DNA from: a bacterium
Lineage (GTDB): Bacteria > Electryoneota > RPQS01
NCBI GenBank assembly: GCA_023382385.1
Contig: JAHDVH010000005.1
Coordinates: forward strand, 124,001-188,000
Length of the DNA stretch: 64,000 bases
Reading direction: 5' to 3'
Below the pieces are notes generated by a model that was not told where the DNA came from, did not search any database, and saw nothing but the letters and a program-made list of their open reading frames with translations. This document shows, one piece after another, positions 33,637 through 49,712 of this stretch (within the stretch, counting starts at the first letter, position 1; each line of letters opens with the position of its first letter). A program made the translations under genes and the position numbers.

Positions 33637-33710
33637 GGGGTCGTAGTTCAGTTGGTTAGAACGCTGGCCTGTCACGCCGGAGGTCGCGGGTTCGAGTCCC
33701 GTCGGCCCCG
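33637..33710 (+). tRNA. tRNA-Asp (anticodon GTC), integration target
   Basis: The acceptor GGGGTCG (33637-33643) pairs with CGGCCCC (33703-33709), with discriminator G. The anticodon loop CTGTCAC gives GTC. CCA is not encoded (CTA follows). From 33666 on the sequence is duplicated at 49656, so its 3' part is supplied by the integrated element and the gene stays complete. Confidence 0.97.
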
Positions 33711-33722
33711 CTAAAAAACAAG
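33666..33722 (+). repeat. attL: 57-bp direct repeat
   Basis: Identical to 49656-49712. It runs from the base before CCTGTCAC in the anticodon arm of tRNA-Asp to the AAG after its 3' end. Confidence 0.92.
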
Positions 33723-33758: not shown

Positions 33759-33788
33759 TGGTCACAATATGGTCACACTTTGGTCACA
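33759..33788. promoter_or_regulatory. three TGGTCACA boxes at 11-bp spacing (candidate integrase arm sites)
   Basis: TGGTCACA starts at 33759, 33770 and 33781, exactly one helical turn apart, between attL and the integrase stop codon, which lies within the third box. The position is that of arm-type integrase or Xis sites. Confidence 0.55.
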
Positions 33789-34809
33789 CATCCGTGTCAA
33801 AATCGAGGTGGTTGACAGCTGTTCGAACGTGCTCTTGATTCAAGGCGAGGTAGTGCTTCTCTGTGACTTTCACCGATGAGTGTCCGAGCAGCCTGCTGAC
33901 GGTATAGATATCGACGCCCTTCTCGATTAAGTGACAGGCGAAGGTCGCACGCAAGCTGTGCAAGTGGATGTCCGGTGGCAAGCTGATTTGACGTGCCCAT
34001 CTTCGGAACTTCTGGGAAACACTGTCTGGCTTGTAGTCAGGGAAAAGTAGTCCTGATCGTTCCCCGGGCCACTTTATGAAGAGTTCTGCCAAGGTGTCCG
34101 AGATCGGAACAGTCCGACGTTTGCCCATCTTTCCAGTTTCTCCTCGAACGACAATTTGTCGCCTTGGCAAGTCAATGTCAGACCACTGAAGTCCAAGAAC
34201 CTCGTTTCGTCGGCAGCCCGTCTTGAGTCCTATGATCAAAAACCGTCTGTACAATGGATCTGGGTGCGAAAGCAGGAGCTTTATCTGGTCCTTGGTAAGC
34301 CAAGCTGGCGGATCTGGCGTACGGGTTCGCACTAGTTGAAATCTGCCCGGAGCGGCTTCGGGGATCAGCTTCAACTTCTTCGCTTGCTGAAGCGCCGTAT
34401 TAAGTACCCTCAGCTCGAGGTTCAGTGTATGAGGCGAGACCTCTGTCAGTCGTCGAACCTTGTACTCTTCGATGATCATAGGTGTGACCGCATCAATCCT
34501 TAGGTCGCCAACAGCGTTAATGAGAGTACGAAGCGCAGTGGCTTCACGGTCACCAGTCTTCTTACTCTTGTTCGACAAGGCAAACGTACGACTGCGTTCA
34601 GCAAGCTCGCTGAGCAACATTGAAGGTGGCGAATCCATGCCATCACTTTCGCCTGCTGCAAGCGCAGAACAGAACTCGTGGTAGATCTTCTCAGCAGTTC
34701 GACGATCAGTTTCACCAATCCGTCTGACTTTCATGATACCGTCAACGCGGTATCTGATGTCCCAGTACGTCGCACCCGATTTCAGTTTTCGTTTCCTCAA
34801 TGATGGCAC
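33784..34809 (-). CDS. int: tyrosine recombinase/integrase of the element
   Basis: About 341 aa. The N-terminal arm-binding region (RKRKLKSGATYWDIRYRVDG) is followed by a SAM-like core-binding domain (about 65-150) and a catalytic domain. Active-site residues are visible: Arg in TGCRRNEVLGLQW, His and Arg in HLHSLRATF, His in LLGHSSVKVT and Tyr in EKHYLALN. The GTG at 34809 is preferred since GGAGG ends 8 nt before it. The GTG at 34818 overlaps that Shine-Dalgarno. It reads toward the tRNA-Asp att site, the usual arrangement. Confidence 0.93.
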   Translation of the reverse strand: MPSLRKRKLKSGATYWDIRYRVDGIMKVRRIGETDRRTAEKIYHEFCSALAAGESDGMDSPPSMLLSELAERSRTFALSNKSKKTGDREATALRTLINAVGDLRIDAVTPMIIEEYKVRRLTEVSPHTLNLELRVLNTALQQAKKLKLIPEAAPGRFQLVRTRTPDPPAWLTKDQIKLLLSHPDPLYRRFLIIGLKTGCRRNEVLGLQWSDIDLPRRQIVVRGETGKMGKRRTVPISDTLAELFIKWPGERSGLLFPDYKPDSVSQKFRRWARQISLPPDIHLHSLRATFACHLIEKGVDIYTVSRLLGHSSVKVTEKHYLALNQEHVRTAVNHLDFDTDV

Positions 34810-34844
34810 AGGTTTCACCTCCTTTCGTGCCGGTTTTGTTCCCT

Positions 34845-34869
34845 AAGCCCCAGGTATTGCCTGGGGCTT
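34845..34869. repeat. 10-bp hairpin between excisionase and integrase genes
   Basis: AAGCCCCAGG (34845-34854) pairs with CCTGGGGCTT (34860-34869). It touches the stop codon of the excisionase-like gene. There is no T run on the minus strand. It may reduce read-through into the integrase. Confidence 0.5.
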
Positions 34870-35093
34870 TACTTCTTCTTATGCCCGTTTCGAAGCTTAA
34901 CTTGACGCGGAGCAAGGCGTTTCTTGTGGCGCTCGATGAACTCATCGAGTTGCTGCTGCGAGAAGTACACCGAGTTCTTGGCAAGCTGCACGCATTCCAT
35001 CTTGCCCGCTTTGACTAGGCGATGAATGGTCGTCTTGCTGATGCCGAGTCTTTCGGCTGCTTCAGATGACTTGAATAGAATACTCTGGTTCAT
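34869..35093 (-). CDS. excisionase-family helix-turn-helix protein
   Basis: 74 aa of the MerR-like/HTH_17 type: SSEAAERLGISKTTIHRLVK (about 9-28) is the helix-turn-helix, followed by the wing and a basic tail RLAPRQVKLRNGHKKK. Position directly upstream of int, small size and basic tail fit a recombination directionality factor. It could instead be a repressor. TAACAC and AGGAG lie upstream of the ATG. Confidence 0.82.
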   Translation of the reverse strand: MNQSILFKSSEAAERLGISKTTIHRLVKAGKMECVQLAKNSVYFSQQQLDEFIERHKKRLAPRQVKLRNGHKKK

Positions 35094-35225: not shown

Positions 35226-36065
35226 TTACTTCATGTTCATGTCCGTTTCGGGCTGTTCATTCGCGTCGGTGGCTGGTCTGCCATCGTTAAGCGAGGAGTA
35301 CTGCACGAAAGTGATTCCGTCAGAACCAACGCCACGCGCTTCTGCGTCTGCTGCCATCACCAGGCCATCGATCGTGTAGAAGTCCTTGGGGTGAGTGAAC
35401 TGAACGAACGGCGTTCCCAGGAAATACCCATGCGACTGCTCTAGGAACGTTTGGTACGCTACGACCGGGTCGTCACCGGCAAGTGCGGCGCGTGCCATCA
35501 CCGCCACTTTGTTGCGGAACTCCAGAAGTTCACGGGGAAGCGCCGTAAGCTTGTGGCGATAAACATCATTCATGTTTATCAGCATTTGGCGCACTTGGTT
35601 GTACGGCAGTTCAACCTCTTCGTGGTCACGCGGGTCGATGGAGCCGTGACGTTCAACCAAGAAGTCATAGAGGATGAGCCCATTGGCAATGTAAGCGTCA
35701 ATGTCTGCATCGAGAACGATGTCTCCAGAAGAGAACCCAACCTGAACGTAGCGGCCGTCAACCAGCCACTTCTTCTGAGCCGGCCCGAACAGGCTCGAGA
35801 AACCGCGTGAGCCCGGAACAACTGCATAGTCAATCATCACGCGCCCAATGCCCGTCGGCATAGGCGAATCTTGCAAGATGTCGACAACAGGCTCAAGCGC
35901 CTCGATGATCTCGCATTTGTCGCCTTGGCGAAATAGCACGGATTCTCGGGGTGACAGCTGAACCAAAATTTTGGTACCCAATGTGCCGTCGATTTGGGAG
36001 TTCAGGAGGCCTGAGTATTCTTCAAAGCTCAGTCCCCATGGAAGGATTAAAGTCTTGTCAAACAT
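35226..36065 (-). CDS. element protein of unknown function, 279 aa
   Basis: Not recognised. It is a soluble acidic protein without signal peptide. It starts MFDKTLILPWGLSFEEYSGL and includes a patterned centre (GRVMIDYAVVPGSRGFSSLF) and an acidic, low-complexity C-terminus ending ANEQPETDMNMK. Its ATG overlaps the stop of a 55-codon ORF by 8 nt. Given its place among regulatory and recombination genes it could belong to the element backbone or to the ubiquitin-like system. Confidence 0.75.
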   Translation of the reverse strand: MFDKTLILPWGLSFEEYSGLLNSQIDGTLGTKILVQLSPRESVLFRQGDKCEIIEALEPVVDILQDSPMPTGIGRVMIDYAVVPGSRGFSSLFGPAQKKWLVDGRYVQVGFSSGDIVLDADIDAYIANGLILYDFLVERHGSIDPRDHEEVELPYNQVRQMLINMNDVYRHKLTALPRELLEFRNKVAVMARAALAGDDPVVAYQTFLEQSHGYFLGTPFVQFTHPKDFYTIDGLVMAADAEARGVGSDGITFVQYSSLNDGRPATDANEQPETDMNMK

Positions 36066-36248: not shown

Positions 36249-36743
36249 TTATGATGAAGTGACAGGGTGTTTTTGGAAGTACTTGCGCAACTTGGGGATA
36301 GCGCCGCCAATGCCGTTCTTGCCCCAGAGAATCTCCTGAAAAGTCGCCTGCTTGATTCCCATGAACTCGGCGGCCTTCCGTTCTGACACGCCTTCGAGCC
36401 TAAGCTCTACTGCGGTCGCCTATCGGTCGGTCAGGCTCTGAAACGCTTCTTCCAGCATTAGGTGATTTCGCGTTTCTGACTCGTCACTGTCGATGTCATC
36501 GATTTCCATAGTCGGTTCCGGGATACACATCCTCTCATGCTCACCGATATCGACATGGTTGTCGAAGCCAAGAGTTCCTCCGACATGTCCTTGCTGGGCT
36601 TGAAACTGAAGGTGGTCCAACTTGGCGGTCGTGCCTTCATCGTTACTCTCGTTCGCTAATCGAATGTCTGCAAAGCACACCTCATTGGTAATTCCTGGAA
36701 TCTCAAACTCGTACCTTGCCTGATAAGGCTGTCTCTGTAACAT
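36249..36743 (-). pseudogene. sigma-region-4-like HTH protein interrupted by in-frame TAG
   Basis: The frame starts MLQRQPYQARYEFEIPGITN, runs 107 codons to a TAG at 36422-36420, and continues in the same frame for 55 more codons to TAA at 36251-36249. The joined region reads LEEAFQSLTDR-stop-ATAVE with LRLEGVSERKAAEFMGIKQA following, a contiguous sigma-70 region-4-like helix-turn-helix. CAG (Gln) to TAG is the simplest explanation. Options are a dead gene, amber read-through, or a sequencing error. GGGAG lies 7 nt before the ATG. Confidence 0.7.
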
Positions 36744-36932: not shown

Positions 36933-36983
36933 TCTTTAGGATTGCCTAAAGAACCGGGCATTCAGTTTAGGTCGGCCTAAACT
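36933..36983. promoter_or_regulatory. paired inverted repeats TTTAGG-N4-CCTAAA
   Basis: Two palindromes, 36934-36951 (CTTTAGG-ATTG-CCTAAAG) and 36964-36983 (AGTTTAGG-TCGG-CCTAAACT), lie 31 bp apart, about three helical turns. They sit at the 3' end of the AAA+ gene and upstream of the HTH pseudogene. They have the form of twin operators for a dimeric regulator. Confidence 0.5.
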
Positions 36984-38766
36984 TCTCGTGCTTCTTCTTG
37001 TGCTGTGAGACTGCGCCTTCAGTTACGCCGTATGCTGAGGCCATGTCCTTACCTTTTCCTTTGTAGACTTCGAGATACTCGAACCAGAACTTCTCAGGAC
37101 CCAAGGCCTTCAGTTTCTTCCCGCCTGACTCGGATCCGCGAAGCAATTCTGCGACTTGTGTTGGTGCGAACTGTTTGAGATGGTCAAGCGTGATTTGATC
37201 TGCGTCCACAGAGTTCAGCAACTGGTTGACGGTCTGGCGGAGTTCATCAATGTTTGCGGGCCAGTGATAAGCCATCAATGCGGTGATTGCTTCCGGGGTC
37301 CACGATTTGACGGGGAGATGCATGTCTATTGCTGCGGATTCAGTTACCATCAACAGAATATCCGGTAAGTCACCCAAGCGCTCTGACAGGCCCGGCACTT
37401 TCAGTTGTACGCCTGACAAAAGCAGGTGTAGACCTGCAAGGAATCGACCGTCGCGTACCGCGAGGGAAAGATCCTTCGATGTTGAAACCAGAATGCTGGC
37501 TCTTAACTTATGACTCTTTGTGCTTCCGACGGGCAAATACTTTTTGTCTTCAAGTGCCCGAAGCAGCTTGGATTGAAGCGGGAGGGACAAATCAGATATC
37601 TCTTCGAGAAAGAGAGTGCCACCCTCCGTTAGGCCGAATGCGCCCAGTCTTTCAGTTGTGGCACCCGTTCGAGTCTCCAAGGCATACCCAAATAGATCGT
37701 TCTCGAACGCCGGTTGTTTGGACTCGGAGCAGTTAATGCGCATGAATTGGCGGTGCGCACGAGCGCTCTTTGCGTGCATGAAAAGGGCAAACTCATGTTT
37801 TCCGGAGCCACGTGGTCCAGTAATTAGAACCGGCTTCTCTACATTTGCTAGTCGAACGGCATTGCGACAGGCTTCCTGGAAAATGGTTGTCTTGCCGACT
37901 AGTCCGCCTGTACGAATCTCGCGCGACCTTGGGTTGCTAAGCCCACTTGAAGCTTGCGCGAACCACTCCAGGCGCTCATGCTCCTTTACAAACAGCGCAA
38001 GCAATTCAAGCACCGCTCGTGGACTGAATACGCGCAGTTCCAAACTGGACAACAGAGAATGCTCCGACTTGGGTTTCGCTTTTCCTTCACTCTGAATGAC
38101 ACCCCAAACCTCCTGCACAATCTCCTTGTCATTGAGCTTCAGTCGCCCATGCCCCAGAATCTGCATCACCACCCTGCTATACGTCTTATCTTCTTTCCGT
38201 GGGCGCAGTAAGCGATCAAAGACTGCGTGAGTTCCCCATCTTGAGTTGAGCGGATCAATATCGTGATCGTACGGAGCCTTTTGCTTAAATACTGGAACGA
38301 AACAATACGTAAGTCCATTAATAACTCTGCTGGGCACAAAGACCAAGTCATCAGGGGCAAGCTTCTTCTTAGGTGAAAATTGATCCAAAATATAGTCCAC
38401 ACCTTCACGCTCGGCTATTTGCAGGTTTACGGCCCGCTTCGCCAGAGTCTTAAAGTCAAACGTGTCTGAAGTACTCAACACGACGAGGTCCGCGTGTTCT
38501 CCCGTTACCTTCATCAAGTCGCCGTAGGAAAAAGAGAAATCAAAATTTGCCCAGGAATTTCCAAACAACATTGCCTGTCGAAAGAAGGCCATGTAGTTTG
38601 AAAGCAAGAGTTGGTAGAACTGTTCAATGCCAAACATTTTGGCCTGTCGCAGAGCTTCGACCTTGCTCGGGTCTTCAGCCCAGTATTCTAGAAAATACTC
38701 AAGTGACCTCGAAAGAACGGCAAGTTCCCGTGGATCTAATGGGTCCTTGGTGCGGTTGTTACTCAT
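36967..38766 (-). CDS. degenerate sigma54-activator-like AAA+ protein
   Basis: 599 aa. Unknown N-terminal domain (1-285), then a bacterial enhancer-binding-protein-type AAA+ domain (about 288-530) and a C-terminal helix-turn-helix (about 570-592, ASAYGVTEGAVSQHKKKH). Walker A GPRGSGKH (317-324) and Walker-B-like LFLEEI (385-390) are present. The sigma54-contact loop GAFTGA is ETRTGA (364-369), and both arginine fingers expected in GRFRxDLYYRLN are missing (GRFLAGLHLLLS, 440-451). So it probably does not activate sigma54. A nucleotide-responsive repressor or a sensor is more likely. It is divergent from the ubiquitin-like cassette. Confidence 0.85.
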   Translation of the reverse strand: MSNNRTKDPLDPRELAVLSRSLEYFLEYWAEDPSKVEALRQAKMFGIEQFYQLLLSNYMAFFRQAMLFGNSWANFDFSFSYGDLMKVTGEHADLVVLSTSDTFDFKTLAKRAVNLQIAEREGVDYILDQFSPKKKLAPDDLVFVPSRVINGLTYCFVPVFKQKAPYDHDIDPLNSRWGTHAVFDRLLRPRKEDKTYSRVVMQILGHGRLKLNDKEIVQEVWGVIQSEGKAKPKSEHSLLSSLELRVFSPRAVLELLALFVKEHERLEWFAQASSGLSNPRSREIRTGGLVGKTTIFQEACRNAVRLANVEKPVLITGPRGSGKHEFALFMHAKSARAHRQFMRINCSESKQPAFENDLFGYALETRTGATTERLGAFGLTEGGTLFLEEISDLSLPLQSKLLRALEDKKYLPVGSTKSHKLRASILVSTSKDLSLAVRDGRFLAGLHLLLSGVQLKVPGLSERLGDLPDILLMVTESAAIDMHLPVKSWTPEAITALMAYHWPANIDELRQTVNQLLNSVDADQITLDHLKQFAPTQVAELLRGSESGGKKLKALGPEKFWFEYLEVYKGKGKDMASAYGVTEGAVSQHKKKHEKFRPT

Positions 38767-38893: not shown

Positions 38894-39026
38894 TCAACAT
38901 CAAATCGACCGGACACTGTAAGACACTTTGGTGCATGTCGAGAATTTAAGGCATAAGAAGTTGAACCAAGGTTCGTCCCGCAGTCGCGGGGCGGCGAAGT
39001 TGATCAACCCAATTCAGGAGAAGGTT

Positions 39027-39239
39027 ATGAAGTGCAAGGTCTTGTGCTTAGGACGGTCGGCGAAGGAGATCGAAATTGGTGAAGGCACCACGGTGGAGCA
39101 GGCCATCTCGCAGGCCGGTTTCCCGAAGGATTCAAGTTACACCCGGCACCTGAACGGCAGTCCGTGCTTTGATTCGGACGTGCTGGTCGACGGGGCAGTG
39201 CTCACGCTCGTGCCACAAGTGAAAGGCGGGGGTTGGTAG
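39027..39239 (+). CDS. ubiquitin-like protein (beta-grasp) with C-terminal GGGW
   Basis: 70 aa. The layout fits a beta-grasp fold: two strands (KCKVLCLGRSAKEIEIGEGT), a helix (TVEQAISQAGF), then strands leading to AVLTLVPQVKGGGW. The Gly67-Gly68-Gly69 tail with one extra residue (Trp70) resembles ubiquitin-like precursors and the MoaD/ThiS end. The start at 39027 has AGGAGAAGG 3-8 nt upstream. The open frame back to 38928 lacks one. It is first of four genes encoding UBL, E2, JAB and E1 homologues. The presence of an E2 favours protein conjugation over sulfur transfer. Upstream is the divergent AAA+ regulator, downstream a strong hairpin. Confidence 0.85.
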   Translation: MKCKVLCLGRSAKEIEIGEGTTVEQAISQAGFPKDSSYTRHLNGSPCFDSDVLVDGAVLTLVPQVKGGGW

Positions 39240-39266
39240 GCAGGATTCTTCTCTGCCTGCCTATCA

Positions 39267-39305
39267 AGGGAGGGCTGTGATCTACGTGGTCATGGCCCTC
39301 TCTTT
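39267..39305 (+). terminator. attenuator-like hairpin between UBL and E2 genes
   Basis: A 14-bp stem with three G-T pairs (39267-39280 with 39290-39303) closes a 9-nt loop and leads into TTTCC. A second stem at about 39236-39264 covers the UBL stop codon (GTAGGCAGG with CCTGCCTAT). Partial termination here would yield more UBL message than enzyme message. Confidence 0.55.
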
Positions 39306-39322
39306 CCTCCGGAGGAACGCTT

Positions 39323-40420
39323 ATGATTGAACAACGGATTCAAACCCTGTGTGACTTCCATGCCCAAAAGTGGCATTGTCCGATTACGCTAATCAAGCAG
39401 GAGCTTGATATTCACGCGTGGCATGAAGTCGGGATTGCTGTCTGCGTGAACGCAGATAAGGATTCGCAATTCTGCAAGGACCTGTTCGGTGACAGCATCA
39501 TGATGGAAGGCGTGCTTGTCGGCAAGGTATCCCCGACTTGGCTTGTCCTGTACGGTGCACCGCGTGTCGATGTGACATCGAATATCCTTGATGCCCATCT
39601 GCCGCGCATGTGCCGTGCGTTTCGTAAGGGGAAAAGGGAATCCCTGATCGACACCATGCAAACCGTTGCCGCCGAACGGAAGCATGAACTTGCTGTTTCA
39701 CTGCGCGATGGCAAGTATGAACTCGAACGACTGTGCATGCAGGTGATGACGTTGTCGCGGAAGATCGAAGGAGACCGTGAGATACTGAATATGTTCAGCA
39801 AAGCGCCTGACTTCATAAAGGCTAAGGCGACGCGAGCATTCGTGGAAATGATGAAGCTGGTACCATCGTGCTACTCGCATATCAACGTCGTCGAGAAGTC
39901 TGTGCTTGCCGAGACGTATCCGATCACTTTGGAACACGATGGCGGCAGTTATCACTTCGAGCCTTACGTGGTTGAAGTAGATCTCGACAAAGGTAAAGTG
40001 TTGATCAGTGGCGGTACAGAAATGAACGGCTATGTTCATCCGCATGTTACGGATGATCCGAATAACATTTGTTGGGGTAACATTGGAAACCTTGTGTCGC
40101 GACTGACTGGTGAGCTTGATTTGCATGGATTGCTTCAATTGGTGCATCAGTTTCTGCATTCCTACAACAGCAGTGATCCGTTTCAGCGCATCGAGAAGTG
40201 GGATCCTGATTGGGTTGAAGAAAGCGATGATGACGATCCGTACTGTTCGTGGTGTGACGACTACGGTCATGAGATCGACAACTGCGACTCCTGCTGGTGG
40301 TGTGAGCATTGTCAGCAGTATGATGATCACGATGAAGACCACTGTCCAAACGCTCCGAAGGGCGAAGAAGAGGAGGATGTCGATGCAGAACCTGCAGAGG
40401 ACACCGCAACCGCCGGTTGA
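39323..40420 (+). CDS. E2-like ubiquitin-conjugating protein with Cys-rich C-terminal tail
   Basis: 365 aa. The N-terminal part (1-165) is unknown and includes a helical stretch around 115-160. The 170-300 region fits an E2/UBC fold: YHFEPYVVEVDL, then HPHVTDDPNNICWGN with candidate catalytic Cys250 (HPN...iCL in classical E2s), then LLQLVHQFLHSYNSSDPFQR. The tail has C308-x2-C311-x9-C321-x2-C324-x2-C327-x2-C330-x10-C341, likely a zinc site, in a strongly acidic context. GGAGGAACGCTT precedes the ATG. It overlaps the JAB gene by 38 nt. Inference: it takes UBL from the E1 and passes it to targets, with the tail perhaps acting as a built-in target-binding or RING-like module. Confidence 0.82.
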   Translation: MIEQRIQTLCDFHAQKWHCPITLIKQELDIHAWHEVGIAVCVNADKDSQFCKDLFGDSIMMEGVLVGKVSPTWLVLYGAPRVDVTSNILDAHLPRMCRAFRKGKRESLIDTMQTVAAERKHELAVSLRDGKYELERLCMQVMTLSRKIEGDREILNMFSKAPDFIKAKATRAFVEMMKLVPSCYSHINVVEKSVLAETYPITLEHDGGSYHFEPYVVEVDLDKGKVLISGGTEMNGYVHPHVTDDPNNICWGNIGNLVSRLTGELDLHGLLQLVHQFLHSYNSSDPFQRIEKWDPDWVEESDDDDPYCSWCDDYGHEIDNCDSCWWCEHCQQYDDHDEDHCPNAPKGEEEEDVDAEPAEDTATAG

Positions 40421-41099
40421 CACCGGGATCAAGATCCAAGTCGAAGCGACCGCGATGCAGAAGCTCTGGCTGTGGACGGACTTTGCCAAGGGGGAGGTCA
40501 GCTGTCTTGGACTCGTCGATGAAGTCATCAGCACCGAGACTGGTCGCACAACGGCGTTGGTCGTCACGGACTTCTATCTGGTCAAACAGAACTGTTCTTA
40601 TGAAGAAACCGACATGGATGCAACGGATGTGGCGCGGCTGATATTCGAATTGGAAGCGAAAGGTATTGACTTCCGAAAGCTTCGATGCTGGGCACATTCC
40701 CACGGCAGCATGTCCGTGTTCTGGAGTGGTCAGGATGAATCCTGCATCAGCGGGCTTGCCAATAATGAATGGTTGCTATCCCTGGTCGTCAATAAGCGTC
40801 GCGACACACAGATGCGTCTGGATCAATACCACCCAGCGCATCTCTATCTGGCAGATGTCACGTGGGAAGTAGTATATCCATTGGTGGACGGTCTGGCAGA
40901 AGCATGCTTTGACGAGTTCAAAGCCAAAGTCACGGAGTCCCACTATCACATTGCCCCAAGGGGGTCGCGGGAGAAGTCCTTTCTCGGTGACCTGAAGTCT
41001 GCGAACGAAAGAGGCGCACTTACCGATGAAGACCTGATGGAAGAGATGGACTGGCTGGGATTGCACAGGGATGAACTCGATGAACTCGAACCGTTTTAG
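40383..41099 (+). CDS. JAB/MPN (JAMM) metalloprotease of the UBL cassette
   Basis: 238 aa. The full JAMM set is present: Glu38 (KGEVSCLG), His105-x-His107 (WAHSHGSMSVFW), Ser115 and Asp118 (SGQD), with exact H-x-H-x7-S-x2-D spacing. Such enzymes bind Zn2+ and cut after the Gly-Gly of ubiquitin-like proteins. Here it could remove Trp70 from the UBL precursor and deconjugate targets. The start at 40383 has AGGAGG 6 nt upstream, inside the E2 gene. The longer open frame back to 40110 is a shadow of E2. The C-terminal third is acidic and of unknown role. It lies 8 bp before the E1 gene. Confidence 0.92.
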   Translation: MQNLQRTPQPPVDTGIKIQVEATAMQKLWLWTDFAKGEVSCLGLVDEVISTETGRTTALVVTDFYLVKQNCSYEETDMDATDVARLIFELEAKGIDFRKLRCWAHSHGSMSVFWSGQDESCISGLANNEWLLSLVVNKRRDTQMRLDQYHPAHLYLADVTWEVVYPLVDGLAEACFDEFKAKVTESHYHIAPRGSREKSFLGDLKSANERGALTDEDLMEEMDWLGLHRDELDELEPF

Positions 41100-41107
41100 G
41101 AGAGCCC

Positions 41108-41764
41108 ATGACAGATCCAAGATTTCTTCGACAGCAGGATGTTGTCGATGCCGAGAAGCTTGCGAAGTTACAAGTCTCTTTGATCGGTCTGGGTTCCATT
41201 GGGAGCGTTACGGGGTTGTATCTTGCCAGGATGGGCGTCTGCCAGCTGACCTGCTTCGATGCCGATGTTGTGGACATTCACAATGTCAGCAATCAGGCTT
41301 ATGGGATTTCTGATATTGGACTGCTGAAGGCCGATGCATTTGCGACTCTCGTGGAGAATCAGACAGGACTGCTGCCAAACACTGTTGGCATCCAGTATGA
41401 CGGTCGGCAGCTTGCTGGCATTGTGATCTCGGCGGTGGATTCCATGAAGTCACGCGAGACTATCTGGAAGTCTATTCGTGATCACCCACAGCTGCAGTTG
41501 TACATTGATGCACGCATGGGACTTGAAACGCTTATCGTGCATGCAGTCAGACCGCAGATCAAGACAGAACGCGTAGAGTATACGCATTCGATTATCTCAG
41601 ATGATCAAGCACTTCAAGAACCATGCACGGCACGGACGATTTGTTACACGCCGTTGATGGCTGCGAGCGTGATCTGCTCGCTTGTGAAGCGGTATGTTTG
41701 CGATGAGATGATACCTGCGAGGATTGTGCTTGACCTTGCGACGATTACAGTCCTTGCTGATTAG
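41108..41764 (+). CDS. ThiF/E1-like UBL-activating enzyme
   Basis: 218 aa, short for the family and consisting only of the adenylation domain. Nucleotide motif LIGLGSIGSVTGLYLARMG (Gly27, Gly29, Gly32), the acidic strand CFDADVVDIHNVSNQ, a basic/DAR pattern (YIDARMGLETLIV), and a candidate catalytic Cys173 in EPCTARTICYTP, where E1-like enzymes carry the thioester Cys. Family knowledge: it adenylates the UBL C-terminus and transfers it as thioester. AGGAG lies 7 nt before the ATG. It is last gene of the cassette. Confidence 0.92.
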   Translation: MTDPRFLRQQDVVDAEKLAKLQVSLIGLGSIGSVTGLYLARMGVCQLTCFDADVVDIHNVSNQAYGISDIGLLKADAFATLVENQTGLLPNTVGIQYDGRQLAGIVISAVDSMKSRETIWKSIRDHPQLQLYIDARMGLETLIVHAVRPQIKTERVEYTHSIISDDQALQEPCTARTICYTPLMAASVICSLVKRYVCDEMIPARIVLDLATITVLAD

Positions 41765-42140
41765 TCCAAAGTAAGGGGGTAACCCCTTCTTTTACAATCC
41801 GTAGGGATCATAACTACAATGAGATCAACATTGTCCGCACTTGACGTTGCTATTTCACATCGTAAAACACATATTTAGTGTGAAAGTCACGTAAACCCTT
41901 CGAAAACGAGGTAGGATTTCGTTGGGTCTTTGAGAAGTCAACATCGGTTTTGTAAATTATTAATCGCCGCAAGTGATTGCCATTTCTGTAATATCGCACT
42001 CTCAGGTGCGGGATTACGCTCACATGCATACAAGTTCAACCTAACTCAGGACTAAAATGAGACTATTGACTAAGTCAAATCGAAATCCTTTCTTGTTCTC
42101 AGGTCTTGGGAAACAGATGGGTGAACTAATCTTGAAGACC
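41765..42140. other. non-coding gap after the UBL cassette
   Basis: About 290 bp without an ORF, then an in-frame 84-nt extension of the next gene that I regard as leader. AT-rich around 41930-42000. No clear terminator hairpin is visible after the E1 gene, so read-through into the secreted-protein genes is possible. Confidence 0.5.
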
Positions 42141-43976
42141 ATGATCATGACGCGAATTCTATCTGTATTCAATCTTTTGAAGCGGGTGGGGTTCGCGGTT
42201 TTGTTTGTTGCGACTGCGAATACTTTTGCCCAGCATCAGGCGCCGATCGAGTGGGAACAACCGCGCTGGGCGAACCTTACCGGCTGGCCGGGGCTGCCGC
42301 GAATCCGTACGCTACGGGTGATTCCGATGGGTGACACGCTGTTGTTCACAGGGTTCCGTATGGCCCCGAATCAAGTCCATGACACGCTTCTGGTCTGCTC
42401 CAGCTTTGACAACGGGCAGACGTTCACGCCGTGGATTCCCATTACCGATGGAAACACGGCGGCATATGGCATTTGGACGGGTTCCGCCGGCAGATTCTAT
42501 TGCTTTGTAAACAAGGATATTCCATTGCCGTGGGCAGGCTGGGTCCTTGTGAGCGAGGACGGCGGTCTGACGTGGAGCGCCCCCCGCGCATATCGTGAAA
42601 ATCGCATGTATATGGGAGGATTCGCATCGGGCCTTGACGTGATGGCAAAGTACGTGAACTACGAACACAATGACGCACAAACCAGAACGATCTTCAGCTC
42701 AGACGGTGGCGACACGTGGTCTCCGCCCGTGATCGTGGACACAGCTGCCTTCATTCTGATGGACTTGGATCAATCCATCGCTTTCACCAGAACCAAACGG
42801 CTGCTGATTGACCAGCCGGCACCGTCGCGACATGATCGCCAGATGTACGTCGCCACGGGAGACAGCACGGGCCAGAACTGGACGCCGTTTGAGGTCTTGC
42901 CATGTGAGTATTATGAAAACTGGATGTGCAATGCCGTCATGGATATTTTGGGGGACACGGCCAGCGAAGCGGCAGGCATCTTGGGGATTTTTAGCGACGG
43001 CATCTCTTTGGATCTATGGCCCTTACACTATCGGACCTCTGATGCCGGAGGTGATTGGGAGAGCTGTGTGCCGATGACAGAGGATCCCTATGTGATTCCG
43101 TGGTCTGGCACGAATGTCACGCTAAACATCGGCGTGGGCAAGCTGTGGCTGGTCGGCTGGGAACATCGCAGCCCTGAATGGGGCAATTGGGTGACGACAC
43201 GGTTCAGCGCTAACCACGGGAGGAATTGGTATCCTTTGCAGGCCATCGCGGACAGCTCCATCATGCTGAACGCGCTAAATGGTCAGATCCGGGGCAACCG
43301 GATAGACGTCTATTGGGATCAAGGATGTAATGTGCAATATCCGACTGACTACCGAATGGTTGCGGGGACGATCACGCCGGACACGATTTATCCTGTCATA
43401 CAGATAGTTATTGCACCGCCGGATACGGTGGGCGTCGGGAGTCAGCAGTTGTTTACGATCCATGCCAGCGACAATGATACGCTGTCCGAGGCGAGGTTGA
43501 TCATTGAAGACCGTGACGGCAATACATGGCGTCGAATTCTACGTCATGTTGGCGATGACATCTATGACACAGTGTGGACGGTTCCGGACACGGGCTATTA
43601 CAACTATTGGCTTGAAGCCGAAGACTGGTGGGAGCAGGTAACGCGCTTGCCTGACAGCGGGAGCTTTCACTTTGTCACGGAAGGCTGGACGCATGCCGAT
43701 GATAACCCTCTGTTCCCGGCTTCGTTTCGTGTTTTGCTCTATCCAAATCCTGCCAACACTGCGCCAAACTTAGAGCTTTCGCCGGATTGGTTCGTGCGTG
43801 GTTCGGTTGAGATTTCCGTGCATAATGTCCTCGGGCAAGAGGTGTGGCGTCAGAAGTTGACGGTTCCAACCGCTTCAATCGCTCTGTTAGACGGGAATGC
43901 CGCGACGGGCGTCTATCTCGCACGTGTGTTTTCGGCGCAACATTCAACGACAAAGAAGTTCGTGATACTAAAATAG
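42141..43976 (+). CDS. secreted sialidase-fold/BNR-repeat protein with T9SS sorting domain
   Basis: About 611 aa. The start at 42141 (or 42147) gives a normal signal peptide MTRILSVFNLLKRVGFAVLF with VATANTFA. The ATG at 42057 would add 28 polar residues. BNR/Asp-box phrases occur (SEDGGLTWSAPRA, SSDGGDTWSPPV, SDAGGDWE) as in sialidase-type six-bladed propellers. The Tyr/Arg/Glu catalytic set of sialidases was not identified. The C-terminus is a sorting domain: SFRVLLYPNPANTAPNLEL, then VHNVLGQEVW, then GVYLARVFSAQHSTTKKFVI. It lies inside the mobile element. Confidence 0.8.
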   Translation: MIMTRILSVFNLLKRVGFAVLFVATANTFAQHQAPIEWEQPRWANLTGWPGLPRIRTLRVIPMGDTLLFTGFRMAPNQVHDTLLVCSSFDNGQTFTPWIPITDGNTAAYGIWTGSAGRFYCFVNKDIPLPWAGWVLVSEDGGLTWSAPRAYRENRMYMGGFASGLDVMAKYVNYEHNDAQTRTIFSSDGGDTWSPPVIVDTAAFILMDLDQSIAFTRTKRLLIDQPAPSRHDRQMYVATGDSTGQNWTPFEVLPCEYYENWMCNAVMDILGDTASEAAGILGIFSDGISLDLWPLHYRTSDAGGDWESCVPMTEDPYVIPWSGTNVTLNIGVGKLWLVGWEHRSPEWGNWVTTRFSANHGRNWYPLQAIADSSIMLNALNGQIRGNRIDVYWDQGCNVQYPTDYRMVAGTITPDTIYPVIQIVIAPPDTVGVGSQQLFTIHASDNDTLSEARLIIEDRDGNTWRRILRHVGDDIYDTVWTVPDTGYYNYWLEAEDWWEQVTRLPDSGSFHFVTEGWTHADDNPLFPASFRVLLYPNPANTAPNLELSPDWFVRGSVEISVHNVLGQEVWRQKLTVPTASIALLDGNAATGVYLARVFSAQHSTTKKFVILK

Positions 43977-44026
43977 TGATCCCTGCAGTGCTGTGGCGGG
44001 GACAATTCGTAACCTTAGGAGGAATC

Positions 44027-47000
44027 ATGTTACGAAGCTATGAACTAGTGGTGGCCGTGCTGGCGTGCATATTTATGCTGAGTCTTGCCATGAGCCAAAC
44101 GAACCTTTCGATTCCCGTCAATCATGCCACCACGGGAACCGCCATCGGCGGGCATTCAGAAGATCATCATGAACAACGTAACCTTCGTTTCATCAATGCC
44201 AAGGATCAGCCGGGGTATGCCGTGGAGACTGGTATTCTGCCTGCTTATTGGGCATCCAGCGGCATCTCGAACGGATTAACCGAACAGCTTATGAGACGAT
44301 CCAATCTTGCCCCTTGGACAATGGATGTTTATCCAAGTGTTTTCACGCACGGTGCATGGCAAGACAATGATGTTGCAACGGAAGCGGTGTGGGGACTCTA
44401 CAGCGAATCTCCGTACAGGTTTAGAGGGCTTGCAGGCGCCACCTGGTATTGGGACCAAGCCGATTGGCCAGCCGATCCGCAGCCGATTACCTGTGCAATC
44501 GCCCCGCCTTGGTCGACATCCAGTTATTATGTTGTGGTAGGATTGGACCGGATCGGTGACGCCACCGCGACCCACTACTTTGAATTGAGTCGTGATGGTG
44601 GCCTGACATGGGAGGTCGTGCCGAACAATGGACCCGCACTCGCAATTATGCCAACAAATCTTGCGACAACTGACGTGGCGATAGAAGGCGTTTTTGCGCC
44701 GGACAAGCTCGTAACCGTGACCACTCAGGCTCTCGATGACAATGATTTGCCGCTCTTGACGGATCACGTTGTTCTACATGGGATATATTGGACCAACGCA
44801 CTTCGCAATGTCTCTCCGGAATGGCACGTACTCCCTGTCGCTTCGGAAGAAACATGGAATCTGCAGATTTCCATGAAGGACAATTTCGTTTTCGGTATTG
44901 CTTATCTTCCCGGTCAATCGCGTCAAGCCGTATATTTTGGTGATTTCACAGGCAATGCCCTCGTTGACTGGCAAGAGGTGCCTTTCAGTTTCACACATCC
45001 GTTGCCCGACGCCATTCCATACGACTTCGAAATCGGGCCGATGGTCAACGGCCACTACACTTTGCTGACGACGAACAGCGACGGCTTGTATTACTCCCCG
45101 AATCAAGGAGCGGACTGGTACAAAGCCGAGAACTTTGCAAGCGACGCGATCCGCACCCCGGAGTTGCGCGAGTTTAGTATTGATGAAGACGACGGGGTGC
45201 ACAGGATTGCTATTGCCGGCTGGTATGCAAGCTATGTTGGTGCGTACAATCCGAGCAACTGGGAATTTGATCTTCAAGAAATCAGTTATGATCCTACTGT
45301 GATCGATCTCTATCAAAATTACAATCAGGCATGGACGGGAGCGGTAACGGGCAGCAACACAATTAATCCTGCGGATATTGCGCTGATAGACTATAGCTCG
45401 GAAGATGAGATCTTCCCGGATCCGGAAGCCGTCTGTGTGCAAGTTCAAAATTGGTTCGGCAACAGCGCGTCAACAAAGACAATCTTCCTGGGTCGGCAGG
45501 ACGTGAACGAGACGGGACCGGTGATCCGTCCATTCTTGTTTACGAACAAGCCGGCCGTCGTCTTCAATCGCAAGGGCACGGCTGGTCCCGTTGCTATGGA
45601 AACGGGCGGCCCAGATTATTTGACTTGGGTTGAGCATCCTTTGTTTGCAGATCCCACCGGTGGGCCTGCGGTTGTATATGATATTGCCGAACGAACAAAC
45701 GGGAGGTTCATTTCTTTCGCGCCACCGGTTGATGCTGCCAACAGATTCTGGAGAGAGATTGGAAGTGGATGGGAGGTAACTCCCACAGATTTGAGCCCCG
45801 GCTTTACCGAGAACTTGCTGGCTGCGTCCGACGGCGGTGCGCTGTACGCACTTTATCCGCTTGGCGGCAGGCACCTCAACTACTCGTTTGATAATGGCAA
45901 TCACTTCACTGAATCGAGTTGGCCAGTCGATCATCCCAATGTAGTTACCTCGATTTCCGCAGGTATCGCCGAAGACATGCCGCTCTACATTGCGGGCCAT
46001 GACAATGCCGAAACTACCGGCAAGTTACAGCGTTGGAATGTGCCCGTTGACAACGGCGCGCACTGGTTCTCAAACACGGTCGAATATGGTCCGATTCGCA
46101 AGATCGTCGCAGATCCGGTCTTGCCGGACGTCGTTTGGGCGCATATTGATGAAGCCAGCTCACTCAATCCAACATTTCAGCTGCTGACGTACAATCAGCC
46201 GTACATGCCGCCCGCCTTCGTTTTAGGTCAGACCAAACTCTGGTCGGATTCCAACGACTACGGTATGCGCGACATCCGTGTCGCCGCAACATCAGAGACT
46301 CACAGAATAGTAGATTTGACGATTCAGACGCCGTACTCGAATGCACAGGACATTGATCACACGGCAATCAAGCGCTGGGAGTTTGACATTACTGGACCTG
46401 ACATTCCACTTCCCGCTTATGTAGACGGAACTTGGATTGTAACAGGTGTTGTAACGATTGAAGCGAACGACACAGTCAACCTTGAACCCGGTTCAGTTAT
46501 GAAGTTTGCGCCCGATGCTCAGTTGCTAGTTGTTGGCACGCTCATCGCCGACCAAGCCACTTTCAAGAAGATTGACGCTGGGCAGTCCTCAGCTTGGGAA
46601 GGCATTTTCCTAACAGGCTCCGCAACGATAACCAATTGCGTAATAGACGGCGCCGAAACCGGTATTGAAACTCACAAGGCGTCACACATTGTGTTGGACG
46701 GTTGCACAATCACCAATTGTGGAACGGGCCTAGTGGCCTATCAGCCGAGCGGAACAGGTGAACCGAGTCTAACTGATTGCCAGATCAACGGCAACGAGCA
46801 CGACGGCTCGTCTTTGCTTGCAAACGCAAATACCTTGATTAATCAATGCGAGTTTTCCGGTAACGGCGGAACCGGTCTGGTGATGATGAACTCGTATGCT
46901 AAGATCAGTTCAAGCGCGTTTATTGGTAATGGTAATGGTGAAGGAGGATACGGGCTGCTATGTTTTGGAAGCTCGCCACTATTGGCCTGTAATGACTTCC

Positions 47001-48127
47001 AAAGCAACCAGAAAGGCGAGTTGGCACTCTACAATCAGAGCTATCCAGTGCTTGAAACTGCGTCTGCTGGCGGACTCAATTCGTTCTTCAACGATACACA
47101 GAACTTAATTGATATGTGGGATTCTTATCCACTGACTGAAGACGGCCACAACAACTTCACTGTGGGCAGTACCGGATATTTCATGGCTGATTTGTCAGCA
47201 TCGCCGCTCAAGCGATACATCTGTGGGAACTTCTGGAATCCCTCGCTAACCCTCGCAACCCTTTATCCAAGTAGTTTGAACGTTTACAAGTGGACATCGA
47301 CCGATCCTACAGCGAACTCTTGTGGTAGTTCTTCAGGGGTGGGATCAAATGCCACACAGCAGATGTTTGCCTCGGCTATGGCAGCACAGGCGAGCGGGGA
47401 CTACGTTGCGTCCAGCGCTTTACTGAGCGATCTAATTGAACAATATCCTGACAGCGTTTGGGCAGCACCATCCGTCGCGCAACTATTTGCTAATCAATGT
47501 TTGATTGGCGATGGCTTTGATGTGTTGCAGGACGAATTGATTGACCTTTCGCAGGCCAATGAAGAATCCATACTTGGAGTTGTCGCAGGATCATTCGCTA
47601 CGAGGCTATATGTGGAAGACGAAGAGTTTGCCCCTGCTGTGGAAACTTATACATCGAATCTTGCCGAAGCGACCAGCGCAACGGATTCCATGTTTGCCGA
47701 AGTCGATTTGGCGATAACTGCATTTAGAGCCGATGGTGGTGGTGGCAGTTTGGACCAAATGAACGTAGCCGGTATTCACGAAGTGTTTAGACAGATGGAC
47801 GCGCTTGCAGGGCACACACCCAGTTCTCCGACTGCGTCTCACAGCGGCTACGCTGCAATTCCCAATACAATTAGTCTCGAAGCAAACTTCCCTAATCCTT
47901 TCAATGCAGAAACGACGATTCGGTACTACTTGCCCGAAGCACAGTTTGCGGTAGTTTCTGTCTTCAATATCGTTGGGCAGAGGGTCGCTACTCTTGTCAG
48001 TGGACAGATGAGTGCGGGCTTCCATGACGTGCATTGGTCTGGATCTGATTTGGCATCCGGTGTCTATCTTTACCAATTAAAGGCTGGCGGAGCGGTTGAA
48101 ACCATGAAGATGGTTCTGCTCAAGTAG
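44027..48127 (+). CDS. giant secreted beta-helix protein with T9SS sorting domain
   Basis: 1366 aa. The start at 44027 has TAGGAGGAATC, an ideal Shine-Dalgarno, and gives signal peptide MLRSYELVVAVLACIFMLSL. About 30-780 is propeller-like. About 800-1100 is a right-handed parallel beta-helix (repeats such as ATITNCVIDGAETGIETHKA, then VLDGCTITNCGTGLVAYQ). A short helical segment comes near 1140-1270, then the sorting domain SLEANFPNPFNAETTIRYYL...GVYLYQLKAGGAVETMKMVL. No enzymatic motif seen. With the preceding gene it forms the extracellular cargo of the element. Confidence 0.85.
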   Translation: MLRSYELVVAVLACIFMLSLAMSQTNLSIPVNHATTGTAIGGHSEDHHEQRNLRFINAKDQPGYAVETGILPAYWASSGISNGLTEQLMRRSNLAPWTMDVYPSVFTHGAWQDNDVATEAVWGLYSESPYRFRGLAGATWYWDQADWPADPQPITCAIAPPWSTSSYYVVVGLDRIGDATATHYFELSRDGGLTWEVVPNNGPALAIMPTNLATTDVAIEGVFAPDKLVTVTTQALDDNDLPLLTDHVVLHGIYWTNALRNVSPEWHVLPVASEETWNLQISMKDNFVFGIAYLPGQSRQAVYFGDFTGNALVDWQEVPFSFTHPLPDAIPYDFEIGPMVNGHYTLLTTNSDGLYYSPNQGADWYKAENFASDAIRTPELREFSIDEDDGVHRIAIAGWYASYVGAYNPSNWEFDLQEISYDPTVIDLYQNYNQAWTGAVTGSNTINPADIALIDYSSEDEIFPDPEAVCVQVQNWFGNSASTKTIFLGRQDVNETGPVIRPFLFTNKPAVVFNRKGTAGPVAMETGGPDYLTWVEHPLFADPTGGPAVVYDIAERTNGRFISFAPPVDAANRFWREIGSGWEVTPTDLSPGFTENLLAASDGGALYALYPLGGRHLNYSFDNGNHFTESSWPVDHPNVVTSISAGIAEDMPLYIAGHDNAETTGKLQRWNVPVDNGAHWFSNTVEYGPIRKIVADPVLPDVVWAHIDEASSLNPTFQLLTYNQPYMPPAFVLGQTKLWSDSNDYGMRDIRVAATSETHRIVDLTIQTPYSNAQDIDHTAIKRWEFDITGPDIPLPAYVDGTWIVTGVVTIEANDTVNLEPGSVMKFAPDAQLLVVGTLIADQATFKKIDAGQSSAWEGIFLTGSATITNCVIDGAETGIETHKASHIVLDGCTITNCGTGLVAYQPSGTGEPSLTDCQINGNEHDGSSLLANANTLINQCEFSGNGGTGLVMMNSYAKISSSAFIGNGNGEGGYGLLCFGSSPLLACNDFQSNQKGELALYNQSYPVLETASAGGLNSFFNDTQNLIDMWDSYPLTEDGHNNFTVGSTGYFMADLSASPLKRYICGNFWNPSLTLATLYPSSLNVYKWTSTDPTANSCGSSSGVGSNATQQMFASAMAAQASGDYVASSALLSDLIEQYPDSVWAAPSVAQLFANQCLIGDGFDVLQDELIDLSQANEESILGVVAGSFATRLYVEDEEFAPAVETYTSNLAEATSATDSMFAEVDLAITAFRADGGGGSLDQMNVAGIHEVFRQMDALAGHTPSSPTASHSGYAAIPNTISLEANFPNPFNAETTIRYYLPEAQFAVVSVFNIVGQRVATLVSGQMSAGFHDVHWSGSDLASGVYLYQLKAGGAVETMKMVLLK

Positions 48128-48224
48128 CTTGCCTTTCCTAACTTACTCAAAGGAGCTCACAATCATGGGGCTCTTTTTTGTGGCATAAGAAGATAGTGAA
48201 CGTTCATTAACCTTGGAGGCAACA

Positions 48225-48314
48225 GTGTGGCGAAAGATCCCAATTGAGCTTGCTTTAGATGCGGGCAAAGCTCTGATAAGACATCTTCGAAACGTCTATT
48301 GCGGTAGGCGCTGA
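48225..48314 (+). CDS. possible 29-aa peptide gene
   Basis: A GTG start with TTGGAGGCAACA (6-nt spacing) encodes WRKIPIELALDAGKALIRHL plus a basic tail RNVYCGRR, an amphipathic cationic helix. Its stop is 10 nt before a terminator hairpin, so it has the layout of a complete small transcription unit. No family known. Confidence 0.4.
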   Translation: MWRKIPIELALDAGKALIRHLRNVYCGRR

Positions 48315-49655: not shown

Positions 49656-49712
49656 GGCCTGTCACGCCGGAGGTCGCGGGTTCGAGTCCCGTCGGCCCCG
49701 CTAAAAAACAAG
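49656..49712 (+). repeat. attR: 57-bp direct repeat (tRNA-Asp 3' fragment)
   Basis: Identical to 33666-33722. It lacks the 5' half of the tRNA and is not a second tRNA gene. Confidence 0.92.

Follow-up and report, generated by a model that had tools for sequence, protein, structure and literature searches.

Bacterial operons that join genes for an E1, an E2, a ubiquitin-like protein (UBL) and a JAB protease bear on the origin of ubiquitin signalling and on phage defence. Mobile JAB/E1 operons of types 6a–6e, with a predicted role in protein tagging, were described by Iyer, Burroughs and Aravind (PMC1779556), the Bil operons encode a two-domain UBL and an E1 with two adenylation domains (PMC11354881) and, according to a 2026 paper (PMC13373217), Bub operons had not been shown to protect against phage. 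Here we describe a cassette at positions 39027–41764 of a 64,000-nt stretch of bacterial DNA (positions 124,001–188,000 of contig JAHDVH010000005.1; hereafter the window), in which four consecutive plus-strand genes encode, in order, a UBL, an E2-like protein, a JAB protease and an E1. To judge from their sequences the four products probably form a self-contained ubiquitin-like protein-conjugation system, and the best explanation of the locus is that the cassette is a core module of a family of integrative elements, inserted at tRNA or tmRNA genes, in KSB1/Calditrichota. The family adds to the known operons a minimal set consisting of a SAMP2/ThiS-like modifier, a one-domain E1, a eukaryote-like HPx...C site and predicted JAMM processing, in a little-known phylum from which, to our knowledge of the literature, no UBL tagging system has been described.

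The cassette and its four proteins

The four open reading frames (ORFs) reported in an initial annotation of the window were found again at their positions, and the motif residues named there are invariant among the homologues. A Shine–Dalgarno-like sequence lies 5–9 nt before every start (caggagaaggtt ATG, ccggaggaacgctt ATG, gaggaggatgtcg ATG and aggagagccc ATG) and the JAB start codon, at 40383, gives a 38-nt overlap with the end of the E2 gene, in agreement with the ribosome-binding sites and the E2/JAB overlap described earlier. Pairwise comparison of the window copy with two sister copies from the same genus gave ratios of nonsynonymous to synonymous substitution (dN/dS) of 0.05–0.16 for all four genes, which are therefore selected as proteins; the evidence of purifying selection on the cassette is strong, and the catalytic residues of E2, JAB and E1 are invariant in alignments of 12–14 homologues. 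A search with the E2 located the gene at 15 places in 10 of the 39 genomes of the phylum (KSB1/Calditrichota), that of the window included, one genome having three copies and another four, and the order UBL-E2-JAB-E1 is identical around every E2 with enough contig. Because the same gene order recurs in these 10 genomes and is accompanied by such low dN/dS values, the cassette is far beyond chance. The UBL search detected 16 copies, spread over 13 genomes of the class; a few belong to cassettes that are degraded or cut by a contig end. When 84,980 species genomes were scanned with a pattern, five loci only were found, those identified belonging to KSB1/Calditrichota (Calditrichaeota), and no relatives were found in plasmids, phages or IMG/VR; at the sensitivity used, the family looks confined to this phylum.

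The UBL (39027–39239, plus strand) is a predicted 70-aa beta-grasp modifier precursor ending in VKGGGW. Its profile matches archaeal SAMP2 (5lda, 7.6e-8) and PF1061, aligned end to end, and Pfam ThiS matches at 4e-4, slightly below cut-off. No other protein of the cassette is as conserved: UBL homologues are 65–88% identical to the window copy as against 40–85% for those of the E2, which is reminiscent of ubiquitin. In all 16 copies the C-terminus consists of KGG followed by one to three variable residues (GW, I, CRS, DQ, A, GQ, R, LV, C or DR), which suggests that exposure of the Gly-Gly requires trimming by a protease. The tail is what would be expected if the UBL were a precursor processed by the JAB protein.

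The presumed processing enzyme, a JAMM/JAB protease of 238 aa (40383–41099, plus strand), carries the complete JAMM/MPN+ signature E...H-x-H-x7-S-x2-D as E38 and H105-S-H107-x7-S115-x2-D118, all five residues being invariant in 13 homologues, exactly as first described; Pfam Prok-JAB matches 13/13 of these homologues (best 0.0056). The E1 (218 aa, 41108–41764, plus strand) is of the single-domain ThiF/UBA5-like type. Its adenylation motif (GxGxxG with Lys and Asp) is present as G27xGxxG32, K74 and D111, and G27, G29, G32, K74, D111 and C173 are invariant, so that the Gly-rich loop and Cys173 of the minimal ThiF/E1 recognized at the outset stand; the match to Pfam ThiF is 2.1e-13, over cut-off. 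Against the PDB the E1 profile scores best with UBA5 (1.8e-10), followed by UBA1, Cap2 and ThiF. Overall, the E1 alone exceeds a Pfam cut-off, the UBL coming near, the JAB protein matching weakly and the E2 not at all.

The E2-like protein (365 aa, 39323–40420, plus strand) is laid out as an alpha/beta N-terminal domain, a helical region, a UBC-like domain and a C-terminal zinc-knuckle tail. Six residues of the active-site region are invariant across 12–14 aligned homologues (H239, P240, H241, C250, W251 and G252), and these include the HPx...Cys signature of the E2 (UBC) superfamily, present as H239-P240-H241 and C250. Eukaryotic E2 enzymes have the spacing HPN-x7-C, and the HPH-x8-C of the window is one residue longer; the corresponding region of the homologue at L029 reads HPHISDGSICWG. 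Comparison of the UBC-like domain with 177,635 PDB sequences placed a ubiquitin-conjugating enzyme (2onu) second, at a sub-threshold E-value of 0.43, with HPH falling on HPN and Cys on Cys. The E2 profile gave no significant match in the PDB, the top one being a weak match to a CLIP1 chain. In the tail C308, C311, H316, C321, C324, C327, C330 and C341 are invariant; the first four (C308-x2-C311-x4-H316-x4-C321) make an exact CCHC zinc-knuckle pattern, and the zinc-knuckle model CLIP1_ZNF matches 5 of the 12 E2 members (best 9.4e-4). Low-confidence AlphaFold2 models show the order helix, beta-meander, HPH...C, helix, which is compatible with E2 topology. Motif, topology, operon context and the sub-threshold PDB match in register make the E2 assignment likely; of the E2 with HPHV...Cys250 that had been proposed, the motif is upheld by its invariance and the UBC fold was not confirmed by AlphaFold2 or Foldseek. 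At the sister locus L024 (9295–10431) the E2 gene contains an in-frame TGA inside the zinc tail, at a position occupied by Trp in homologues; this may be a real truncation, a site of readthrough or an assembly error.

The same matches could be taken to indicate a sulfur-carrier pathway, in which the UBL would be a thiocarboxylate carrier of ThiS/MoaD type, activated by the ThiF-like E1 and freed at its C-terminus by the JAB protein, with the 'E2' as the acceptor enzyme. SAMP2-type modifiers can also serve sulfur transfer; the UBL has its best matches in ThiS and SAMP2, and the E1 family scores highest with ThiF-type models. Nevertheless this pathway is improbable. Genes for thiamine, cysteine or molybdopterin synthesis or for a sulfurtransferase were not recognized at the homologous loci examined, the initial annotation having named cysteine, thiamine or molybdopterin neighbours as the finding that would speak against conjugation. 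The locus is mobile and multi-copy, and cofactor synthesis can be served by another ThiF-family gene, which stands apart from the cassette in the host genome. The invariant HPH...C site of the E2-like protein likewise argues against a sulfur carrier, as does the lack of a JAB gene in the thiamine or molybdenum cofactor operons of Iyer et al. 2006 (PMC1779556).

An integrative element family and a shared motif

The cassette had been assigned to a mobile element, and this is borne out by an integrase beside a tRNA gene and by direct repeats that bound an element of about 16 kb inserted in tRNA-Asp. The left attachment repeat (33666–33722, plus strand) consists of the 3' end of the tRNA-Asp gene (33637–33711, by ARAGORN) and a further 11 bp, and its 57 bp recur exactly in the right repeat (49656–49712, plus strand), within a wider 92-bp match that is 88% identical. 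A tyrosine integrase (33784–34818, minus strand; Pfam Phage_integrase 7e-31, phrog_1 1.7e-67) adjoins the tRNA and is followed by a gene for an excisionase-like helix-turn-helix protein (34869–35093, minus strand; TIGR01764 excise 1.5e-9, over cut-off; HTH_17 3.3e-12). An integrase beside a tRNA or tmRNA gene recurs in sister elements, at tmRNA, tRNA-Ser, tRNA-Lys and tRNA-Glu, and direct repeats at both ends accompany it in two of them: G029C25, an element of 44.6 kb with repeats of 91 bp at 99%, and G027C2, with 58 bp at 95% and a second partial repeat. Such repeats were sought and not found in G027C9, G027C10, G035C165, G032C488, G036C25 and G027C5. Same-site comparison for the window element gave no clean empty site. 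In the sister genome G028 the same tRNA-Val/tRNA-Asp site lies on contig C15 (67336–107411); there a 46-bp stretch of the tRNA end is found again 40 kb farther downstream, and no UBL match was found on the contig. A further large element may be inserted at the site in G028 and, because of this recurrence, the tRNA-Asp site looks like a hot spot. A search of Rfam returned tRNAs only.

All copies of the cassette are preceded by a common motif, GG[C/A]ATAAGA (GGMATAAGA). The promoter-like GGCATAAGA copy in the window (38950–38958, plus strand) lies 77 bp before the UBL start, and in 16/16 copies the motif stands 65–82 bp before the UBL start codon, mostly inside TTTCTGGCATAAGA. A motif scan revealed two further GGCATAAGA copies in the 16-kb element, upstream of the integrase (34877–34885, minus strand) and of a small ORF (48182–48190, plus strand). 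The motif also precedes the integrase in G028C6, G028C26, G027C5, G032C488 and G033C40, an excisionase-like gene in G030C144 and small cationic ORFs in G028C6, G028C26 and G028C10. The small cationic ORF of the window (48225–48314, plus strand) encodes 29 aa, and peptides of 25–26 aa (MSNILCEIVRSISQGAKAACRVIRK type) occupy the matching position behind the motif in the G028 elements; these products could be small membrane-active peptides. Three motifs were seen in the 16-kb window element against 0.16 expected, and ten in the three delimited elements against 0.89 expected. This distribution points to a regulon of the element, a feature that the initial annotation did not note. GGMATAAGA was rejected as a general promoter of the organism, the 29 occurrences in 2.9 Mb being equalled by the 29 of a reversed control. 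Should the motif act as a promoter or operator, it would tie cassette expression to that of the integrase. GC hairpins stand behind the motif in many copies, and their alignment gave no convincing consensus fold for a conserved leader RNA; a sigma-54 (-24/-12) promoter before the UBL was not found consistently. One UBL copy (L054 3567–3773, G036:C130) has the upstream motif and no recognizable E2, JAB or E1 downstream, and may be a remnant or a stand-alone modifier.

Between integrase and cassette, the window element encodes a conserved protein of 279 aa without family match (35226–36065, minus strand), homologues of which take the same position in at least six sister elements, and a helix-turn-helix, sigma-region-4-like protein (36420–36743, minus strand). 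The latter gene has an in-frame stop in the window copy and is uninterrupted in four sister elements; its homologue in L024 matches Sigma70_r4_2 at 1.8e-5, slightly below cut-off. That this element-encoded sigma-like protein reads the GGMATAAGA motif is offered as a hypothesis only.

The gene divergent from the cassette (36967–38766, minus strand) encodes an N-terminal domain and an AAA+ domain of the bacterial enhancer-binding protein (bEBP) type (Sigma54_activat 8.7e-41), which corrects its first description as a divergent AAA+ gene; it also proved to be one of several modular forms. In G029C25 an N-terminal domain like that of the window is joined to a different C-terminal domain; in G027C9, G035C165 and G033C40 a C-terminal domain of the G029C25 type follows the AAA+ domain; and G027C10 and G028C6 combine a similar C-terminal domain with a long helical N-terminal part. 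The divergent gene, which has counterparts in seven sister loci, is thus assembled from swappable modules (N-terminal domain, AAA+ domain and common C-terminal domain), the C-terminal module being common to seven loci and the gene being absent or different at some. The GAFTGA loop makes the contact with sigma-54. In none of the four AAA+ versions that were compared is this loop intact, although it is retained as GSFTGA in a chromosomal bEBP. The divergent gene therefore probably does not encode a normal sigma-54 activator, and with the loop lost and no consistent -24/-12 promoter, classical sigma-54 activation is unlikely.

Two cargo genes follow the cassette, one for a secreted BNR-type protein (42057–43976, plus strand; Por_Secre_tail 1.4e-7) and one for a giant beta-helix protein (43844–48127, plus strand; Beta_helix 1e-15, Por_Secre_tail 9.5e-6), both with C-terminal sorting domains. 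Secreted proteins resembling the first stand after the cassette in several sister loci. As sorting domains are common in the host genome (126 matches), the two are probably ordinary cargo. Larger sister elements carry genes for AEP (TOTE-type) or D5-type primases (L018 12689–15574; L046 15745–18573; L042 408–3017), recalling the replication modules of satellites or integrative plasmids.

Proposed function of the cassette

The cassette apparently encodes a working tagging kit. We propose that the JAB protein would trim the UBL precursor after ...VKGG, that a dimeric single-domain E1 would adenylate Gly68 and take the UBL on Cys173, and that the E2-like protein would accept it on Cys250 and join it to target proteins. 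The N-terminal domain and zinc tail of the E2-like protein would help in target choice, taking the part of a separate E3. Removal of the tag may fall to the JAB protein as well. Transcription from the motif shared with the integrase would switch tagging on with the element's own programme, and the adjoining modular AAA+/sensor gene perhaps controls transcription of the cassette. The purpose would most likely be to hinder phage or rival mobile DNA.

Several points weigh against this proposal. No Pfam family, including any E2 family, matches the E2-like protein. AlphaFold2, run on a full E2 alignment of 12 sequences and a UBC-like domain alignment of 14, gave mean predicted local distance difference test (pLDDT) scores of 63 and 65, both of low confidence, and Foldseek returned no match for these models at E <= 0.001. 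Asn62 of the E1 takes the place of Arg73 in MoeB (alignment by eye). We know of no substrate, E3, proteasome or phage phenotype for the cassette, and its defence context is direct in one delimited sister element only, G027C2, which contains an N6/N4 methyltransferase. In G027C9 (L038 14804–19249) genes for a cytosine methyltransferase, Vsr, MzaB and MzaC (the Mza defence system) lie 9–14 kb past the cassette; no element end was located there and these genes may be flanking. A defence role, which had earlier been deduced from the island location, is plausible and gains from the methyltransferase or Mza genes in or near these two sister elements, though it stays at the level of inference.

The same conjugation chemistry could instead serve upkeep of the element, a role also suspected of the PRTRC genes of plasmids, and this is a real if rather doubtful possibility. 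The upkeep could concern excision, copy number, stability or partition, with the UBL tagging proteins of the element, for example its integrase or the modular regulator encoded by the divergent gene. In several copies GGMATAAGA stands before the UBL operon and again before the integrase or excisionase gene, which points this way, as do the C-terminal module common to the divergent genes of seven loci and the match of the order UBL-E2-JAB-E1 to the plasmid PRTRC order C-(F)-B-A-ThiF. However, no ParB, PRTRC-E or PRTRC-F homologue was recognized in the element, the divergent gene is not constant among the loci, G027C2 has the integrase alone between tRNA and cassette, and some sister elements or their flanks contain defence genes. 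Defence and upkeep of the element are both candidate purposes.

A broader possibility, which we put forward tentatively as somewhat unlikely, is a new kind of mobile element with ubiquitin-like tagging as its core function. Such an element might express the modifier operon, the integrase and the cationic peptides as one regulon from an element-specific GGMATAAGA promoter, possibly with the sigma-like factor, although this too is speculative. It is similarly conjectural that E2 and E3 functions would be united in one chain, through substrate recognition by the zinc knuckle, and that the swappable AAA+/sensor modules would set when or what is tagged. The motif common to cassette and integrase suggests a connection, open to testing, of protein tagging with a mobile element's life cycle, and the small, separate parts should make the system easy to rebuild in vitro.

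Comparison with described systems

In gene order the window cassette is nearest to PRTRC (type 6d; ParB-E-C-F-B-A-ThiF on plasmids). Both have separate UBL, E2, JAB and E1 genes in the same order on mobile DNA, both JAB proteins have HSHG-x4-F-x-S-x2-D, and the E1 proteins are related. Profile–profile comparison (hhalign) with PRTRC proteins from eight plasmids relates the JAB protein to protein A (E 6.5e-6) and the E1 to PRTRC ThiF (E 1.9e-14), with no detectable relation of the UBL to protein C or of the E2 to protein B (probabilities 0.4 and 1.6). The single-sequence scores of JAB and E1 fall far under the PRTRC NCBIfam cut-offs (13.3 vs 101.8 and 33.2 vs 144.75). Only CxG of protein B is in register with the window E2, which differs in the HPH before the Cys, the long N-terminal domain and the zinc tail. 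PRTRC is plasmid-borne and its plasmid loci include ParB and proteins E and F, partners not recognized in the window, where the cassette belongs to an integrative element. On sequence, the E1 and JAB proteins are thus read as distant PRTRC relatives and the modifier as SAMP2/ThiS-like, with a UBL, an E2 and a gene neighbourhood other than those of type 6d.

Membership of a named defence family, as a divergent Bil, Bub or CBASS Cap2/Cap3 operon, appears very improbable. BilABCD has the same four functional classes, and its JAB protein is needed to expose the UBL C-terminus (PMC11354881). By contrast BilA has two tandem UBL domains where the window has a single 70-aa UBL, the Bil E1 has inactive and active adenylation domains and a Cys domain where the window has one ThiF domain in 218 aa, and the Bil E2 carries a CEHH motif in place of HPH...C; the Bil kinship entertained in the initial annotation was not supported. 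The E1 adenylation domain is related to that of CBASS Cap2 and is shared with the PADLOC E1-E2 models, and a JAB companion is likewise present, but the window has a true beta-grasp modifier and neither an E1-E2 fusion nor a CD-NTase was seen; PADLOC gave no match for the E2 or the JAB protein.

Archaeal SAMP2/ThiS modifiers differ from the window UBL, which has an extension of one to three residues after GG and a dedicated E2. Eukaryotic UBA5, the E1 of UFM1, is the best solved relative of the E1 profile and likewise a minimal E1 built around one adenylation domain, from which the window E1 differs in the lack of recognizable CxxC zinc pairs, a further point against the proposed activity, and in the replacement by Asn of the Arg of N-x-x-R-Q. 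The cassette, which fully matches none of the Bil, PRTRC and CBASS definitions, accordingly stands as the distinct subtype that had been suspected, with its own UBL and E2, and is classed here as neither a Bil nor a PRTRC operon, its predicted proteins differing from those of each described bacterial ubiquitin system compared.

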